Source of the DNA: Thioclava atlantica
Lineage (GTDB): Bacteria > Pseudomonadota > Alphaproteobacteria > Rhodobacterales > Rhodobacteraceae
Length of the DNA: 64,000 nucleotides
NCBI RefSeq assembly: GCF_000737065.1
Contig: NZ_AQRC01000001.1
Coordinates: 124,001 to 188,000, forward strand
Direction: 5' to 3'
The position numbers and the translations under genes are program-made. Positions 20,800-55,520 of the stretch are shown piece after piece (the stretch's first letter is position 1; each line of letters opens with the position of its first letter). The notes under the pieces were generated by a model. That model made no database searches. It saw only the letters and a program-made list of their open reading frames with translations, and was not told where the DNA came from.

Positions 20800-22356
20800 C
20801 TATCCCGTCCCGCCCAGATCGAGCTGCGGCGTGGCCGCGAGTTTGCGGCGGTGCTGCGCCGCCCAGTCCCGAAGCGCCGCGCTCGGCATCGGGGCGGCGA
20901 TGGCCGGTCCTTGAACCTCGGTGCAGCCGAGTTGCGCGAGCATCGCGTGTTCAGTAAGGCCCGAGACCCCTTCGGCGAGCGTGCCGAGCCCTATCGTCTC
21001 GGCCATTCCGACTATGGCGGATACGAGCCGTTGCGCTTCGGGATCGTGATCGAGCTTCGCGACGAGGGGAGCACCGATCCGCAGGCATCGCGGGGACAGT
21101 TTCCGTATCGCCTCGTCCGGGCCGGGGCCGGCGCTGAAACCGGCGAGTTCGAGCGATGCGCCCGCCGCGTGAAGCCTATGCAGATTATGCGCCACGGCAC
21201 CTTCGCCCAGGCAGTCGACCGTGTCCTGAGCGACGATGACACCCATCCGGTCCGGCGTGACATCGAAGCGGTCGCAATCCCAGGTGATGCGCTCGGCCAG
21301 TTTCGGGTCGCGAAGTTGCCGGAGCGTTAGAGACAGCGAGACGCGTCCGAATTCATCCCCGCTACGGGCGAAGTCCCGCAGCGCAACGAGGGTTTCGAAG
21401 AAGATGATCTCGCAGACGCGCTCGGCGAGGCCCGTGGCTTCGGAGGCCGCGACGATCTCGGTTTCGGTCAGGATGCCCCGGCTGCGATGGAGCCAGCGCG
21501 GGACGGCTTCGAGCCCCGCGATTTCCCCGGTATCGGTGGAAATGCGGGGGGCGAAGAAAACCTTGATCTGCCCCTCCTCGATCGCGTCGGAGAGCTCCCC
21601 TGCGAGCGGGTTCGGGGGCGTTTTCTTTTGGCGCATCGCGCCGGAAAAGGCCCGAAGAGATCCCGGGCCACTGCGCCGGGCGAAGTCGGCCGCCTGTCGT
21701 GCTTGGGAAAGAAGGGTTTCGGGGATGAGTGCCGAGGGGGAATTGAGCAGATCGCGGCCGATCAGGCGAAAACCGATATGGGCGGAGGCGGAGATCGCTC
21801 GCCCCTCGATCAGAAAGGGGTCGGCGAGCGACTCCTGCACGCGGCCGGCGAGCTGGATCACTCCTTCGAGATCAAGGCGCGGAGTGGGCTTCAGGAGCAC
21901 CAGGAAGCGCGCATCCTCCCACCGGGTGACACGGTCTCCGATTCGCAAATTCAGGGCGATCCGGTCATGCATCGCGCGCAACAGGGCGGCGTACTCGCGG
22001 TGGTAGAGCGCGCGTCGGAGTTGATCGGGTGCGTCCAGCCCGATCACGAGACAGGCCGTGGGGCGGCCACGTTCGCGTGCCTCGACCAGGAAATCGGCCC
22101 AGATATCGAGAGCCTCGTCATGCAGGGGCAGGCCGGAGACGGGATCGCAGGGCAGATCGCGCTCCTCCTCGGGGATGGAGAGCGGACGCGTCGCCCAGCC
22201 GACGAGCGTTGCCGTGAGTGCCAGGATGACGAACCCCTCTACCCCGACCCAGAGCAGGGCGAGCGCGCAGGCGGGAAGGAAGGCGATCATTTCGCGCCGG
22301 AGCAGGATCGGGCCGGGCTTGCCGTGCCCGTTCACGCGAGGGCGCGCGCTATGCAT
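20800..22356 (-). CDS. Degenerate GGDEF/EAL protein, likely catalytically inactive
   Basis: A 518-residue inner-membrane protein with two helices (about residues 23-56), a GGDEF-like domain (about 68-240) and an EAL-like domain (about 250-505). In place of GGDEF it has RWEDAR (145-150). The EAL site keeps Glu283 (LEAVPRWLH), the late LAEGV and the GCTEVQG segment. It lacks the usual metal-site Asn (SLSLTLRQL), the ILEITE glutamate (MGVIVAQD), the DDFG pair (LELAGFSAG) and the catalytic lysine. It should therefore neither make nor cleave cyclic di-GMP but might still bind it. It stands between ttcA and yidC. I prefer ATG 22356; a GTG at 22428 is the alternative. Confidence 0.85.
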   Translation of the reverse strand: MHSARPRVNGHGKPGPILLRREMIAFLPACALALLWVGVEGFVILALTATLVGWATRPLSIPEEERDLPCDPVSGLPLHDEALDIWADFLVEARERGRPTACLVIGLDAPDQLRRALYHREYAALLRAMHDRIALNLRIGDRVTRWEDARFLVLLKPTPRLDLEGVIQLAGRVQESLADPFLIEGRAISASAHIGFRLIGRDLLNSPSALIPETLLSQARQAADFARRSGPGSLRAFSGAMRQKKTPPNPLAGELSDAIEEGQIKVFFAPRISTDTGEIAGLEAVPRWLHRSRGILTETEIVAASEATGLAERVCEIIFFETLVALRDFARSGDEFGRVSLSLTLRQLRDPKLAERITWDCDRFDVTPDRMGVIVAQDTVDCLGEGAVAHNLHRLHAAGASLELAGFSAGPGPDEAIRKLSPRCLRIGAPLVAKLDHDPEAQRLVSAIVGMAETIGLGTLAEGVSGLTEHAMLAQLGCTEVQGPAIAAPMPSAALRDWAAQHRRKLAATPQLDLGGTG

Positions 22357-22456
22357 GATGTCCCTGCCGCGGATCTTCACTGTGCCCCCATCGTGGTTCA
22401 CGGACCCGAGGTGGGTCCGGCCGATCACACGCTAGGGGTAATTGGTGAGCGCTCGA

Positions 22457-49462: not shown

Positions 49463-50854
49463 TCAGGCTGCGGCGATCTTCCGCGAGAGTGCCACCTGGT
49501 TGCGGCCGGTCGCCTTCGCGTTGAGAAGCGCGGCATCGGCTTCTTCGACGAGATGTTGCGGATCGTCATCGCGCAACCCGCCGAAGGCGAGCCCGATCGA
49601 GACGGTGATCCGGATCGCGCCCCCGTCCGGGAGGCGGATCGGTTGCGCGGCGATGGCGTCACGCAGGTGCCTGGCGAGGTGCTGTCCGCGATCCGGCGAG
49701 ATTTCGGGCATTGCTACGAGAAATTCCTCTCCGCCGATCCGCGCGATCAGTTCGACCCCGCGCAGATGGGTCTTGAGTGCCTTGCCGAACGCGGTGAGGA
49801 CATGGTCGCCAGCGCTATGCCCAAAGGTGTCGTTGATCCGCTTGAAGCGGTCGAGATCGAGAAGCATCACCATGAAGGGCCGCCCGGTCCGGCGCGCGCG
49901 CTCGGACAGGCGTGCCAATTGGGTCGTGGCGAAGCGGCGGTTGTGAAGGCCGGTCAGCGGATCGACCGTCGCGAGGCGCAGACCCTCGTTGACCGAAATA
50001 CGCAACCTGTCGTGGAGCCGCTTGCGCGCGAGCTGGGCCCGCAGGCGTTGCGCGGCCTCTTCGGCGGCGAGCGGAGCCGAGAGATCCGCAGGCAGGAGAT
50101 CATCGGCCCCCAGGTCGAGTGCGGTCGCCTGCGTCTCGTGCGCGAAGCGAGGGACCGCGATCGCGATCACCGCGTCTCGGGTGGCGGCGTGCGATCGGAG
50201 TTCGGACATCAGCCGCAACCCGTCATGGGGGCGTGCCGGATCCGCCTCTATCACGAAGGCCTCGGGGGCCGCATCGTCGGCTCTCCGGATCGGAGCGTCT
50301 TCACTCAGCACCTCGATCCGGTCGCCGGGAAGAGTGCGCGCCAGCGCCATCTTCCAGCGCAATGCGGTTTCCCGGGTGCGGGCGATGAGGCCGATCCGGA
50401 CGGGCGCGACATAATCGTCGGCCGTTTCGGCAAATCCCAATTCGCGGAAGGTCAAGGCGCGCAGGGCGAAATCCTCGGCGCTGGCATGGGCCCGCAGCAG
50501 GCTGCGCAGCCGTGCCATCAGGACAAGTTCGTCGATCGGCTTGGAGAGCACCTCGTCCGCCCCGGCCTCGAGCAGTTCGAGGCGCAGAACCGGATCGTCG
50601 CGCCTTGTGAGCGCGATGAGCGGGATATGCCGCGTCTCCGCATCCGCGCGCAGGCATGCGATCATTTCGGTGCCCGTCATATCGGGAAGATCGACATCGG
50701 CGAGGATCAGTCCGGGGCGTTCGCTCGCGGCGATCGCGATTGCCTCCGCGCCGTTTGCGGCCTGAAGCGTCGCGTAATGCGCGCCGGTCAGTTTCGCTTT
50801 TAGGACGATGCGGTTGGTCGCGACATCATCCACTATCAGGATCGATCCCGCCAT
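49463..50854 (-). CDS. pleD: PleD-like response regulator diguanylate cyclase
   Basis: A 463-residue cytoplasmic protein with an N-terminal receiver domain (phospho-acceptor Asp53 in LILADVDLPDM, Lys105 in VLSKPI), a degenerate second receiver (about 150-285) and a C-terminal GGDEF domain with the active GGEEF in RIGGEEFLVAMPE. This is the PleD layout; phosphorylation should activate cyclic di-GMP synthesis. The inhibitory I-site is RGVE, so its last residue is Glu rather than Asp. ATG 50854 begins MAGSILIVDDVATNR. It diverges from DUF3572, a conserved neighbour. Confidence 0.93.
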   Translation of the reverse strand: MAGSILIVDDVATNRIVLKAKLTGAHYATLQAANGAEAIAIAASERPGLILADVDLPDMTGTEMIACLRADAETRHIPLIALTRRDDPVLRLELLEAGADEVLSKPIDELVLMARLRSLLRAHASAEDFALRALTFRELGFAETADDYVAPVRIGLIARTRETALRWKMALARTLPGDRIEVLSEDAPIRRADDAAPEAFVIEADPARPHDGLRLMSELRSHAATRDAVIAIAVPRFAHETQATALDLGADDLLPADLSAPLAAEEAAQRLRAQLARKRLHDRLRISVNEGLRLATVDPLTGLHNRRFATTQLARLSERARRTGRPFMVMLLDLDRFKRINDTFGHSAGDHVLTAFGKALKTHLRGVELIARIGGEEFLVAMPEISPDRGQHLARHLRDAIAAQPIRLPDGGAIRITVSIGLAFGGLRDDDPQHLVEEADAALLNAKATGRNQVALSRKIAAA

Positions 50855-50959
50855 CTCTCGTCCGCTCCCCGATTGCACTCCGCTCTGTCTCGACCGGTGA
50901 CTTGAAGATACGGGACGATCAGTTAACAAAGCGTTTCCGGTAATCAGGAGGTGGCCCAG

Positions 50960-51238
50960 ATGCGGCACGAAGATGCTCATGTTCTCGCGATCCGCACCTT
51001 GGGCTGGATGGCCTCGCAAGAGGGTCTTCTCGACGGGTTCCTCTCGGTCTCGGGTGCGAGTGCGGAAGATCTTCGCACACAGGCGGATGATCCGGATTTT
51101 CTGACGGGCGTGCTCGATTACCTCTTGATGGAGGATCGCTGGGTGCTCGAATGCGCCGCGGAGCTCGGTGTGCAGCCGGAGACGATTATGGGCGCACGCA
51201 CCGTTCTCGGGCGGGGCGATCTGCGGCACTGGACGTAG
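50960..51238 (+). CDS. DUF3572 family protein
   Basis: A small protein of 92 residues in the DUF3572 family: it opens EDAHVLAIRTLGWMASQEGLLDGFLSVSGASAEDLRTQ and has VLDYLLMEDRWVLECAAELGV. The family has no known function but is often next to PleD-type genes in alphaproteobacteria. I choose ATG 50960, with AGGAGG 7 nt upstream, rather than GTG 50951. The HAD phosphatase gene follows after 47 bases. Confidence 0.88.
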   Translation: MRHEDAHVLAIRTLGWMASQEGLLDGFLSVSGASAEDLRTQADDPDFLTGVLDYLLMEDRWVLECAAELGVQPETIMGARTVLGRGDLRHWT

Positions 51239-52008: not shown

Positions 52009-53742
52009 ATGCATACGAGGCTTCAACATAGTCTGCTCGGGGCGCTCGCCGGACTGTTCTTCTGGTGGCTGCTGAATGCGATGCCGGACGCGCTCCCCCT
52101 GGATGCGCGCGCGGTCTTCGCCCTCGGTGTGCTCGGCGCCGTCTTCTTCGGCGCCTCGCTCGCGATGCTGGGTGAGATCGGCGCGCGCAAGGCGCTCGGC
52201 GCGGCGATCGTCATCGCTCTGCCCGTCGCGGGTCTGAGCTGGTGGGAGGCGGGCACGCTCGACCCGACGAAGTCGATCGCCGAACAGATGCGTTTCGGCC
52301 TGCTGGCGCTCTTCGTGCTGGCCTCGATCCCGTTGCCCTTCGCGATGGTCATCCTGATGCGCGGCCGGTCGGCCTGGGCCGATTATGCGGATCTCTTCGC
52401 GCATAGCTGGAACATCGTCGTGCGCTACGCGGCGGCCTGCGTGTTCCTCGCGCTGGTCTGGATCGTGCTCTACCTGTCGTCGCATTTGCTCGAACTGGTC
52501 GATATCGACGTGCTGCGGGTGCTCTTCGAACATGACCAGATCGCCTGGCCGCTCGCAGGTGCGATCTTCGGCCTCGGGTTGGCGGTGGTGACCGAGCTCG
52601 AGGAGATGATCTCGCCCGCGCTGATCCTGCGGCTCTTGCGGCTGCTCCTGCCGGCCGTGCTGGTCGTGGTGGTGGTCTTCGTCGCCGGGCTGATCTTGCG
52701 GCGCGGGGTGGTGGGCGTGCCGGGGTTCCCGGATACCGATACGCTCCTCGCAATGGCGATCGCGGCGGTGACGCTTGTATCGATCGGTGTCGAGCGCGTG
52801 GATTACGAGGCGGTGCATGCGCCGATCCTGCGGCTATCCGCACAGGGCTTGTCGCTGATCCTGCCTGTACTCGTCGCGGCGGCCGGCTGGATCGAGTGGC
52901 ACCAGATCGCCGCGCTCGGCTGGACGCCCCCGCGCGTGGCCGAGGTCGCCCTGACGCTGCTACTGGCAGGCTATGCCTTGGGATATGCGGTGTCGGTGCT
53001 CTCCGGGCGGCAATGGATGGCCGGCGTGCGGCGGGTCAATATCGCGATGGCGCTCGCGCTGCTGGCGGTGGCGCTGCTCTGGCTGACGCCTCTCGTGTCG
53101 CCCAACCGGATCGCGACGCGCTCGCAGATCGCGCTCTATGAAGCGGGCAGGATCGACGCTGCGCATCTGCCGGTCGACGCCATGCAGAACGATTGGGGGC
53201 TCGCAGGACAGGAAGGCGTGGCGCGCCTGCGCGAGATGGCGCGGTCGGACCGCGCGCTGGCGGCGGTCTTCGCGCGCGATGGTTCGAAAGACGGGGCCGC
53301 GGCGGATGCGGCGGGGCGGCTTGCAGCCTTGCGGCAGGATATCGTCGTCGCGCCGGGAAGCCCCGAATTGCCGAAAGGTCTGCTTCGCGCGATCCTGACG
53401 GATGCGGGGGCGGGGAGCGCTGGGCTCTGCCTGCCTCATTCCGACGGTCGGCCGAGCTGCGCGCTCGTGCTGGGAGACTTTCTGCCCTCCCATACCGGGG
53501 AAGAGGCAATGCTGATCCGGCAGGGACCCTATTCGGACATGGTGGCGGTCTATGCCGATAGTGAGGGGCTCTGGCGCGGGACGGGGCGCGGACAGATCCG
53601 CGACGCTCAGGAGGGTGCCATCGCGCGCGGGGGGCTCGACGCGGTGATCGCGGCGGTTGCCGCGGGGAAGGCGACGCTGGTGCCGAGCGGCATTCAGGCG
53701 CTCGAGGCCGGCGGAAAGGTGCTCTTGCCGGTGGCTCCGTGA
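52009..53742 (+). CDS. DUF4153 family multi-pass membrane protein
   Basis: A 577-residue inner-membrane protein with roughly ten helices over residues 5-370, broken by short polar loops, and a soluble C-terminal domain of about 190 residues rich in Ala, Gly and Arg (from about IATRSQIALYEAGRIDAAHLP). This layout, with TLLAMAIAAVTLVSIG and the loop GVPGFPDTDT, fits DUF4153. Function unknown. Start ATG 52009 follows AGGGCG at short distance. Confidence 0.75.
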   Translation: MHTRLQHSLLGALAGLFFWWLLNAMPDALPLDARAVFALGVLGAVFFGASLAMLGEIGARKALGAAIVIALPVAGLSWWEAGTLDPTKSIAEQMRFGLLALFVLASIPLPFAMVILMRGRSAWADYADLFAHSWNIVVRYAAACVFLALVWIVLYLSSHLLELVDIDVLRVLFEHDQIAWPLAGAIFGLGLAVVTELEEMISPALILRLLRLLLPAVLVVVVVFVAGLILRRGVVGVPGFPDTDTLLAMAIAAVTLVSIGVERVDYEAVHAPILRLSAQGLSLILPVLVAAAGWIEWHQIAALGWTPPRVAEVALTLLLAGYALGYAVSVLSGRQWMAGVRRVNIAMALALLAVALLWLTPLVSPNRIATRSQIALYEAGRIDAAHLPVDAMQNDWGLAGQEGVARLREMARSDRALAAVFARDGSKDGAAADAAGRLAALRQDIVVAPGSPELPKGLLRAILTDAGAGSAGLCLPHSDGRPSCALVLGDFLPSHTGEEAMLIRQGPYSDMVAVYADSEGLWRGTGRGQIRDAQEGAIARGGLDAVIAAVAAGKATLVPSGIQALEAGGKVLLPVAP

Positions 53743-53802: not shown

Positions 53803-54387
53803 ATGCTCGGCCTGATCAACCGTTCGATACAGAATTTCCTGACCGATACCTACGGGCCGGATCTGTGGCGTCAGGTCGCCCACCGGGTCGGCGCGCCGAC
53901 AGAGGGTTACGAGCCGATGCTGCGCTATCCCGACAGGGAGACGCTCGGCCTGCTGAAGGCGGCGGGCGCTGAGTTGCGGCGGTCCCGTCCCGAACTGCTC
54001 GAGGATCTGGGGGCCCACCTGACAACCTGCGAGCCGGTTCGGCGCCTGTTGCGTTACGGCGGGCAGGATTTCGCCGGGTTTCTCTATTCGCTCAATGAGT
54101 TGCACGGGCGCGCGCGGATGGCGCTTGCCGATCTCGACCTGCCCGAGCTCGACCTCGTCGAGATCGGTTTGGGCGAGTATCGCCTGACGATAGAGGCTCC
54201 TCACCCCGGATGGGGGGCGGTGATGGCGGGGCTCATGCGTGCGATGGCCGACGATTACGGTGCGCTTGCCGTGATCGAGATGCCGACGGATTGCGACATG
54301 GAGGCGGTCCATATCCGTCTGCTCGACTGCCGCCATTCCGAGGCGCGCGGCTTTCGGCTGTCACATCATGTCGGGGCACAAGGATGA
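53803..54387 (+). CDS. H-NOX (heme NO-binding) protein with altered YxSxR motif
   Basis: A 194-residue H-NOX sensor of nitric oxide or oxygen. The fold is clear: MLGLINRSIQNFLTDTYGPDLW opens it, and the proximal heme His101 is in SLNELHGRARMAL, at the standard position. The motif YxSxR, which holds the heme propionates, is replaced by Ile130, Ala132 and His134 in YRLTIEAPHPG. Heme binding may therefore differ or be lost. The stop overlaps the start of the HNOBA-GGDEF gene (ATGA at 54384-54387), so the two make a coupled sensor-cyclase pair. ATG 53803 matches the family start. Confidence 0.88.
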   Translation: MLGLINRSIQNFLTDTYGPDLWRQVAHRVGAPTEGYEPMLRYPDRETLGLLKAAGAELRRSRPELLEDLGAHLTTCEPVRRLLRYGGQDFAGFLYSLNELHGRARMALADLDLPELDLVEIGLGEYRLTIEAPHPGWGAVMAGLMRAMADDYGALAVIEMPTDCDMEAVHIRLLDCRHSEARGFRLSHHVGAQG

Positions 54388-55520
54388 GCGGGACGCAAGC
54401 CGATCGGCAGATCATCGAGGCGGCGCAGGACCCCTCGGAAATGACGGCATTCCCTTCTTGTCTGGGGCGCTTCGCGCCGCTGATGAATGCCCTGATGCCG
54501 ATGTTCCTCTGGATCGACGATGCCGGACGGATCCAGGGGCTGGGCCGGACCTTGCACAAGGCGCTCGATGAGGCGGAGGTGCTCGGCCAGCCCTTCGATC
54601 GCTTCTTCGCGATCGGCCGGCAGGGACATGGCGGATCGCTTTGCCCGAATGCGCGCGACGCGGAAGGCTATGCGCCGCGCAGCCTCCAGCCCCGGGAAAG
54701 CAGTGGTTTGCTGCGGGCGATGGCGCGGGAGCGCGCCATTCATCTGACATTGCGCGCGCGCCCGGGGCTCAGCCTGCGCGGCGAGGCCTTCGCGATGCCG
54801 GAAGCGGAGGGCGGCGGGGTCGTGATGAAGCTCAGCTTCGGTATCTACCTGCGGGAGGCGGTCGCCGCATTCAACCTGACAGAGAGGGATTTCTCGGCCG
54901 CCGATCTCGCGATGGAGATGCTCTACCTGCAGGAGGCGAAGTCGCTGGTCATGGCGGAGCTGCGGGCGCTGACCACGCGGCTCGAAACGGCCCGGAAGGA
55001 GGCCGAGACCCAGGCGCTGACCGATCCGCTGACCAAGCTTCCCAATCGCCGGGCGATGGAGCAGGCACTGACGAAGGCGATCGCCGGCGCCGCGGCAGGC
55101 GGGGCGCCGTTCGCGGTGGTTCAGATCGACCTCGATCACTTCAAGACCGTCAACGACACCCATGGCCATGCCGCGGGCGACTATGTGCTGCAATCGGTGG
55201 CCCGCATCCTTCGCGACGCCTTGCGGGCGGGCGATATCGCGGCGCGGATGGGGGGAGACGAGTTCCTGCTCATGCTGCGCGGGCGGCTCGGGCGGGATGA
55301 GGTCCGGGCACTTGCGGCGCGCCTGATAGCGCAGCTCGAGGCGCCGAAATGGTATGGGCGCAGCGAATGCCTCATTTCCGGCTCGCTCGGCGCCGCCTTC
55401 TCGCAGGACTACCTGCCGGAGGAGCTCGGGCAGGTCCTGGGCGATGTCGATCACGCCACCTATGCCTCCAAGGAAGCGGGGCGGGGATGTCTGCGCTTCG
55501 CGCGGCCGCCCTCGATGTGA
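54384..55520 (+). CDS. HNOBA-GGDEF diguanylate cyclase, partner of H-NOX
   Basis: The 378-residue protein has an N-terminal HNOBA (PAS-like) domain (residues about 15-150, with NALMPMFLWIDDAGRIQGLGRTLHKAL), a linker helix, and a GGDEF domain (about 220-378) with the active-site ARMGGDEFLLML and DPLTKLPNRRAME. The inhibitory I-site RAGD is complete, so product inhibition is expected. The coding overlap with H-NOX fits a two-part sensor in which H-NOX controls cyclic di-GMP synthesis, as is known in other bacteria. Start ATG 54384. Confidence 0.88.
   Translation: MSGTQADRQIIEAAQDPSEMTAFPSCLGRFAPLMNALMPMFLWIDDAGRIQGLGRTLHKALDEAEVLGQPFDRFFAIGRQGHGGSLCPNARDAEGYAPRSLQPRESSGLLRAMARERAIHLTLRARPGLSLRGEAFAMPEAEGGGVVMKLSFGIYLREAVAAFNLTERDFSAADLAMEMLYLQEAKSLVMAELRALTTRLETARKEAETQALTDPLTKLPNRRAMEQALTKAIAGAAAGGAPFAVVQIDLDHFKTVNDTHGHAAGDYVLQSVARILRDALRAGDIAARMGGDEFLLMLRGRLGRDEVRALAARLIAQLEAPKWYGRSECLISGSLGAAFSQDYLPEELGQVLGDVDHATYASKEAGRGCLRFARPPSM

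Follow-up and report, generated by a model that had tools for sequence, protein, structure and literature searches.

Near the end of the window, the whole 64-kb stretch of DNA analysed here, a gene for an H-NOX protein overlaps a gene for a diguanylate cyclase. The H-NOX has a histidine at the heme-ligand position and has lost the tyrosine, serine and arginine of the YxSxR motif that holds the heme propionates. How does such a protein control its cyclase, and does heme have any part in it? Gene pairs of this kind are already known, as widespread gas-sensor look-alikes in which the heme-holding parts are mostly lost and the signalling enzyme is intact. Because the clade as a whole has dropped the heme ligand, one has to ask first if the window protein binds heme at all.

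The H-NOX and cyclase genes of the window

The H-NOX gene (53803-54387, + strand) encodes a 194-residue protein of the class B, or Group 5, type described below, matched by Pfam HNOB with E=2.2e-20, and a profile search found it to be the one HNOB protein of the window genome. Its closest solved relatives are Nostoc H-NOX and then the beta-1 subunit of soluble guanylate cyclase (sGC). In an alignment with Nostoc Alr2278, His101 (codon CAC, 54103-54105, +) coincides with the proximal histidine, while the sequence I130-E-A132-P-H134 (54190-54204, +) occupies the YxSxR site, placing Ile130 (ATA, 54190-54192), Ala132 (GCT, 54196-54198) and His134 (CAC, 54202-54204) opposite Tyr, Ser and Arg. When 30 canonical H-NOX proteins of the same family were aligned with it, their His, Tyr and Ser fell on the same window residues. 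These two alignments exclude a shift of the motif, and a pattern search of the whole protein, in which no Y-x-S-x-R turned up, excludes a second copy elsewhere. The histidine and the three replacements named in the original prediction, and the register on which they depend, are thus borne out.

The predicted structure has a mean pLDDT of 85.8, with residues 177-194 below 50. When the model was compared with the PDB, H-NOX structures ranked best (Z 20.7 with 2o09), and the match to Nostoc H-NOX (Z 20.7-20.9 over 174 residues, rmsd 2.2) confirms the H-NOX fold. Weaker matches were to TRAPP Bet3 proteins (Z 8.9, one of them with palmitate) and to the cellulose-synthase subunit BcsD (Z 8.8). TRAPP and H-NOX are evolutionarily linked. 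The Bet3 match allows a lipid-binding reading but says little for it, since BcsD ties.

The cyclase gene (54384-55520, +; 378 residues) begins with an ATG at 54384 that lies inside the H-NOX stop, so that the two genes share an ATGA overlap. Its product consists of an N-terminal HNOBA/PAS-like region, a long helix and a GGDEF domain (Pfam E=5e-40; Z 24.6 to 3ign for the GGDEF part of the model). As had been claimed, the GGDEF active-site motif (55251-55265, +) is intact, and so is the inhibitory I-site RxxD (RAGD, 55224-55235, +) five residues ahead of it. The HNOBA label given to the cyclase is weaker than claimed: Pfam HNOBA does not match the window cyclase at E up to 10, and what stands in its favour is that, at the same threshold, 13 of the 18 partner cyclases aligned have weak matches, the best at 2.1e-5. 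The gene immediately before that for the H-NOX, likewise on the + strand, encodes a DUF4153 protein (52009-53742, +). The genome has five GGDEF-domain matches, three of them within the window; these include a response-regulator GGDEF protein (49463-51229, -) and a 542-residue protein with a weak GGDEF match and no GGDEF motif (20800-22428, -).

Loss of the heme site in class B and the origin of His101

We compared the window protein with H-NOX proteins from 394 genomes of its family, which we call Rhodobacteraceae by inference from the members and which NCBI splits. HNOB matches were found in 296 of the 394 genomes, and matches to the window protein itself in 288, or about three quarters, a figure in which some of the weaker hits are canonical H-NOX proteins (G004, G294). 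These proteins split into two classes, a canonical class A and a class B that contains the window protein; the tree separates the two with an SH-aLRT value of 98 and a long-branch warning. Within class B the tree leaves 82 of its 152 inner branches open, and support is poor for the deep ones.

Class B was sampled among the matches listed, at places ranked by similarity to the window or Dinoroseobacter shibae (D. shibae) protein, in the window genus and by a window-seeded pattern search, so that weaker relatives are left out and the window genus is over-represented; the 252 rows became 233 sequences after merging identical first 150 residues. In this sample the ligand position holds Pro in 146 sequences, Gln in 22, His in 20 and Glu in 13. 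Tyr130 occurs in none of the 233, and a second, anchor-based count agrees for the 227 that have the anchor. Counting all four canonical residues (H, Y, S, R), 156 of the sequences keep none, 75 keep one and two keep two. Y-x-S-x-R appears in seven, at residues 17, 72 or 175-179, so distant from the motif site that these occurrences are due to chance; in class A it appears in 30 of 31 rows. Class A, represented by the best 30 distinct places and so biased to the most canonical, has His, Tyr and Ser in all 30 and Arg134 in 29 of 30. The last count comes from the fast alignment that gave the 233 class B counts, the position being gapped in 27 of the 30 rows of the alignment used for His, Tyr and Ser; the fast alignment mis-gaps class A at 101 and a few rows, including D. 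shibae, at 132-134, and for this reason the other class A counts and the D. shibae letters were taken from separate alignments.

The comparison that had been proposed as a check on the motif loss therefore shows that the loss is a property of the clade and that His101 is the exception. The earlier interpretation, half right as a whole, was made from the one sequence, in which it could not be seen that the exceptional feature is the histidine and not the lost YxSxR.

Is His101 an inherited heme ligand? Across 16 species of the window genus the position holds Gln in seven (CAG), His in four (CAC or CAT), Asn in four (AAT or AAC) and Pro in one (CCG). In a concatenated tree, the window falls in an eight-row clade of four His and four Asn (support 100/99), the sister rows of which are all Gln; the rows outside these have Gln, Pro or Glu, and the outgroup of this genus tree does not form one side of a branch. 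Over the class B tree, the label His versus other changes at least 10 times at site 101. We read His101 as regained because the position varies within the genus and because the tree sets the His rows beside Gln relatives. On this one tree, the residue was probably regained and then changed to Asn in sister species, and is probably not an inherited heme ligand. For asking if other heme residues come back along with His, the well-supported part of the tree offers three independent pairs, a number too small for a test. Orthologues of the window genus with His, Asn, Gln and Pro form a natural series for asking if heme matters.

Four of the 16 congeners (L092-L095) have a class B H-NOX that stands apart from the other 12 and groups with Rhodobacter rows in a single-gene tree, a pattern that points to gene transfer, to old paralogy or to a genus that is itself mixed. 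Elsewhere in class B, His at the ligand position recurs together with Trp at 132, in a variant (L122, L124, L127, L169, L178, L247, L266) that has D. shibae among its members and may be a heme-competent subset.

Gene pairing, selection and modes of action

Of 145 class B locus records, 142 have a GGDEF gene downstream of the H-NOX gene, or 138 of 141 distinct proteins; the window accounts for three of the records, and two other loci are each present twice. This count sought a GGDEF-like motif, so that a cyclase without it would score as missing, and two of the three remaining records extend only 594 and 715 bases downstream. The I-site RxxD is present in 139 of the 142 partner cyclases. Among 31 class A records, in which one locus appears twice, the neighbourhood contains a kinase box in 25, GGDEF in two and neither in four. 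Class A H-NOX often occurs in genomes with a second, class-B-like match, mostly with histidine kinase pairing (L004-L031). At one locus (L002) a canonical H-NOX is followed by a GGDEF protein with a start similar to the N-terminal part of class B partners, and a 120-kb Phaeobacter plasmid carries a class B H-NOX and GGDEF pair (L291:2501-4107).

Ten chosen close class B pairs gave dN/dS values of 0.06-0.27, two His/Asn pairs among them at 0.17-0.18, which argues that class B H-NOX is under selection. Among class B sites, 101 has a middling evolutionary rate (53rd percentile), and 132 and 134 change faster (69th and 90th). P114, E67, R84 and D150 are invariant in all 143 class B rows and D68, R80, R81, R103 and D151 are nearly so; in the 12 class A rows set against them, conservation extends to P114 alone. 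Together, the conserved pairing and the purifying selection in close pairs support the earlier statement that the unit responds to something. That the H-NOX is a decaying relic beside a cyclase that works alone, as might be supposed from the loss of every known heme anchor except His, is accordingly very improbable: the selection, the near-constant gene pair and the invariant residues specific to class B all speak against it, as does the biofilm phenotype of a Paracoccus denitrificans (P. denitrificans) hnoX mutant (PMC5588039), from which it appears that an H-NOX without the axial His acts in vivo.

Our favoured reading, held with a confidence a little better than even, is that the window protein is a class B (Group 5) pseudo-H-NOX and holds its cyclase in check independently of heme. 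The observations beneath it are the sequence, the clade-wide loss in the sample, the gene pairing, the purifying selection and the predicted fold. From these we infer a protein that has kept the H-NOX fold and its dedicated partner, has lost most of the heme-anchoring site and, in spite of a probably regained histidine, would lack functional heme. It would bind the overlapping cyclase at the HNOBA-like N-terminal region and restrain c-di-GMP synthesis, docking through a putative surface of the conserved charged residues E67, D68, R80, R81, R84, R103, D150 and D151, and its trigger would be a signal other than the breaking of an Fe-His bond. H-NOX helices have been proposed to dock on partners. 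A fuller version, which we offer tentatively, is that class B H-NOX proteins are heme-free regulators and respond to something other than a gas, be it a small molecule, a partner protein or a lipid (the case of TRAPP Bet3), sensed at the former heme cleft or the conserved charged surface. In that version drift would have brought the heme ligand back in the window lineage, from Gln to His, with a later change to Asn in sister species.

Against a heme-independent regulator stands, above all, the histidine placed exactly at the ligand position. It is also the starting point of the alternative of a working heme-based NO sensor like that of D. shibae, in which His101 would bind iron, the pocket would hold heme without YxSxR (with His134 or other residues in place of Arg) and the NO-bound H-NOX would inhibit the cyclase. 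The D. shibae protein is reported to detect NO and to inhibit Dgc1 (PMC7232146, PMC8846402); of the papers that cite Bedrunka et al. 2018, three give the inhibition of Dgc1 and two of these tie it to NO binding. We take one genome in our set (G035) to be D. shibae, since a stretch of pDSHI01 matches its contig C2 at 100% in the plasmid's own coordinates (two other genomes, G229 and G165, match it at 100% at other places). The sole HNOB protein of this presumed D. shibae genome belongs to class B and resembles the window protein in its ligand-position His, in the absence of Tyr and Ser from the motif (C-I-W-H-R in D. shibae) and in the cyclase encoded directly downstream. If the reported NO binding is taken with these letters, heme binding need not end when most of YxSxR is lost, and it may persist in a class B protein that has His and Arg and lacks Tyr and Ser. 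The window protein, however, is 37% identical to that of D. shibae and has His134 where D. shibae keeps Arg, and its histidine lies in another part of the tree, beside Gln relatives and with Asn in sister species of the same His clade. The window genome encodes NnrS, which makes NO plausible as a signal; NosP (FIST) gave no match in it. In P. denitrificans, the authors of PMC5588039 model an H-NOX that lacks the histidine as NO-responsive, yet see effects of NO without H-NOX too. The D. shibae report, NnrS and the P. denitrificans model all weigh against our favoured reading, and it is because of them that we keep NO sensing through heme in consideration, as an unlikely explanation of the window pair.

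The remaining proposal is the one made originally, that heme is bound in a shifted environment and senses redox state or another gas. A histidine combined with a changed propionate site could shift the redox potential, and oxidation sensing has been described for Caulobacter H-NOX (PMC12329717) and for heme-free Vibrio cholerae (V. cholerae) H-NOX (PMC8738867, section 10). Those cases use a Cys-zinc site, however, and no conserved Cys column was found in 143 class B rows, the best being position 130 (74 of 143), which is Ile in the window protein; Cys 76, 164 and 176 of the window protein are not among the frequent class B positions. A Cys-zinc redox switch was rejected on these grounds as lacking support. 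With the ligand position itself varying among congeners, and with the ligand lost from the clade at large (20 of the 233 sequences sampled have His), the comparison disfavours an altered heme that senses redox state or another gas, and we regard it as improbable.

Comparison with known H-NOX systems

The published Group 5 of H-NOX proteins, with P. denitrificans as its seed, has the proximal His in less than 10% of members, mostly Pro in its place and no conserved Cys, and section 10 of the review PMC8738867 leaves its sensing mode as a question. Class B has the same traits (Pro in 146 and His in 20 of 233, no conserved Cys, an adjacent diguanylate cyclase), and its His share of 8.6% in the sample agrees with the figure given in that section. 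To stand for the published seed we took its presumed orthologue in P. denitrificans HAMBI_2443, a strain other than the one in which the mutants below were studied. This H-NOX reaches 189 bits against the class B profile and 71 against that of class A, so that class B matches Group 5 by profile rather than by the published network. The window protein shares with this type its clade, again by profile, the kind of cyclase downstream and the loss of heme anchors; unlike it, it has His rather than Pro at the ligand position. The proximal His is missing from the H-NOX proteins of both P. denitrificans and Rhodobacter sphaeroides (PMC5588039). In section 9 of that paper the P. denitrificans hnoX mutant is partly biofilm-deficient and a double cyclase mutant (dgcAB) overproduces biofilm, and the authors suggest that H-NOX inhibits DgcA. 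A subunit of H-NOX fold that would dock on the HNOBA-like region and hold the cyclase back, with a trigger other than Fe-His cleavage, is the simplest model to cover both cases.

The literature discusses the H-NOX proteins of bacteria with class B as NO sensors (PMC7232146, PMC5588039). As the direct NO evidence cited comes from D. shibae, which we place among the fewer than 10% with His, it may not stand for Group 5. The role of heme in Group 5 is likewise left as a question in PMC8738867, and the series found in the window genus bears on it. To the parts of this literature considered here the present comparison adds that YxSxR was lost in parallel, that the ligand position varies inside one genus and that D. 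shibae falls in class B, any of which may already have been published; in the open-licence literature, we found no newer work on the Group 5 signal.

A class B H-NOX of Rhodobacter capsulatus is 49% identical to the window protein and likewise has a GGDEF gene downstream, but carries Gln at the ligand position. We take its locus (L036) to be rcc02630/rcc02629.

A structural precedent for a heme-free reading is provided by the alpha subunit of sGC, the H-NOX domain of which is a heme-free pseudo-H-NOX within a cyclase, the moth form being without YxSxR (PMC8196705, section 13). The precedent is imperfect, and counts to that extent against our favoured reading, since the same section gives the function of the alpha H-NOX as unknown and the domain as unnecessary for the regulation of activity. 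The two also differ in that an N-terminal extension enters the pocket in sGC alpha; a pocket blocked in this way is ruled out for the window protein, which has no extension and starts at the first residue of the fold. Set beside the canonical H-NOX proteins, Nostoc Alr2278 and class A, the window protein has the same fold (Z 20.7 to 2o09), whereas the canonical proteins have both His and YxSxR and, in class A, mostly lie beside a histidine kinase.
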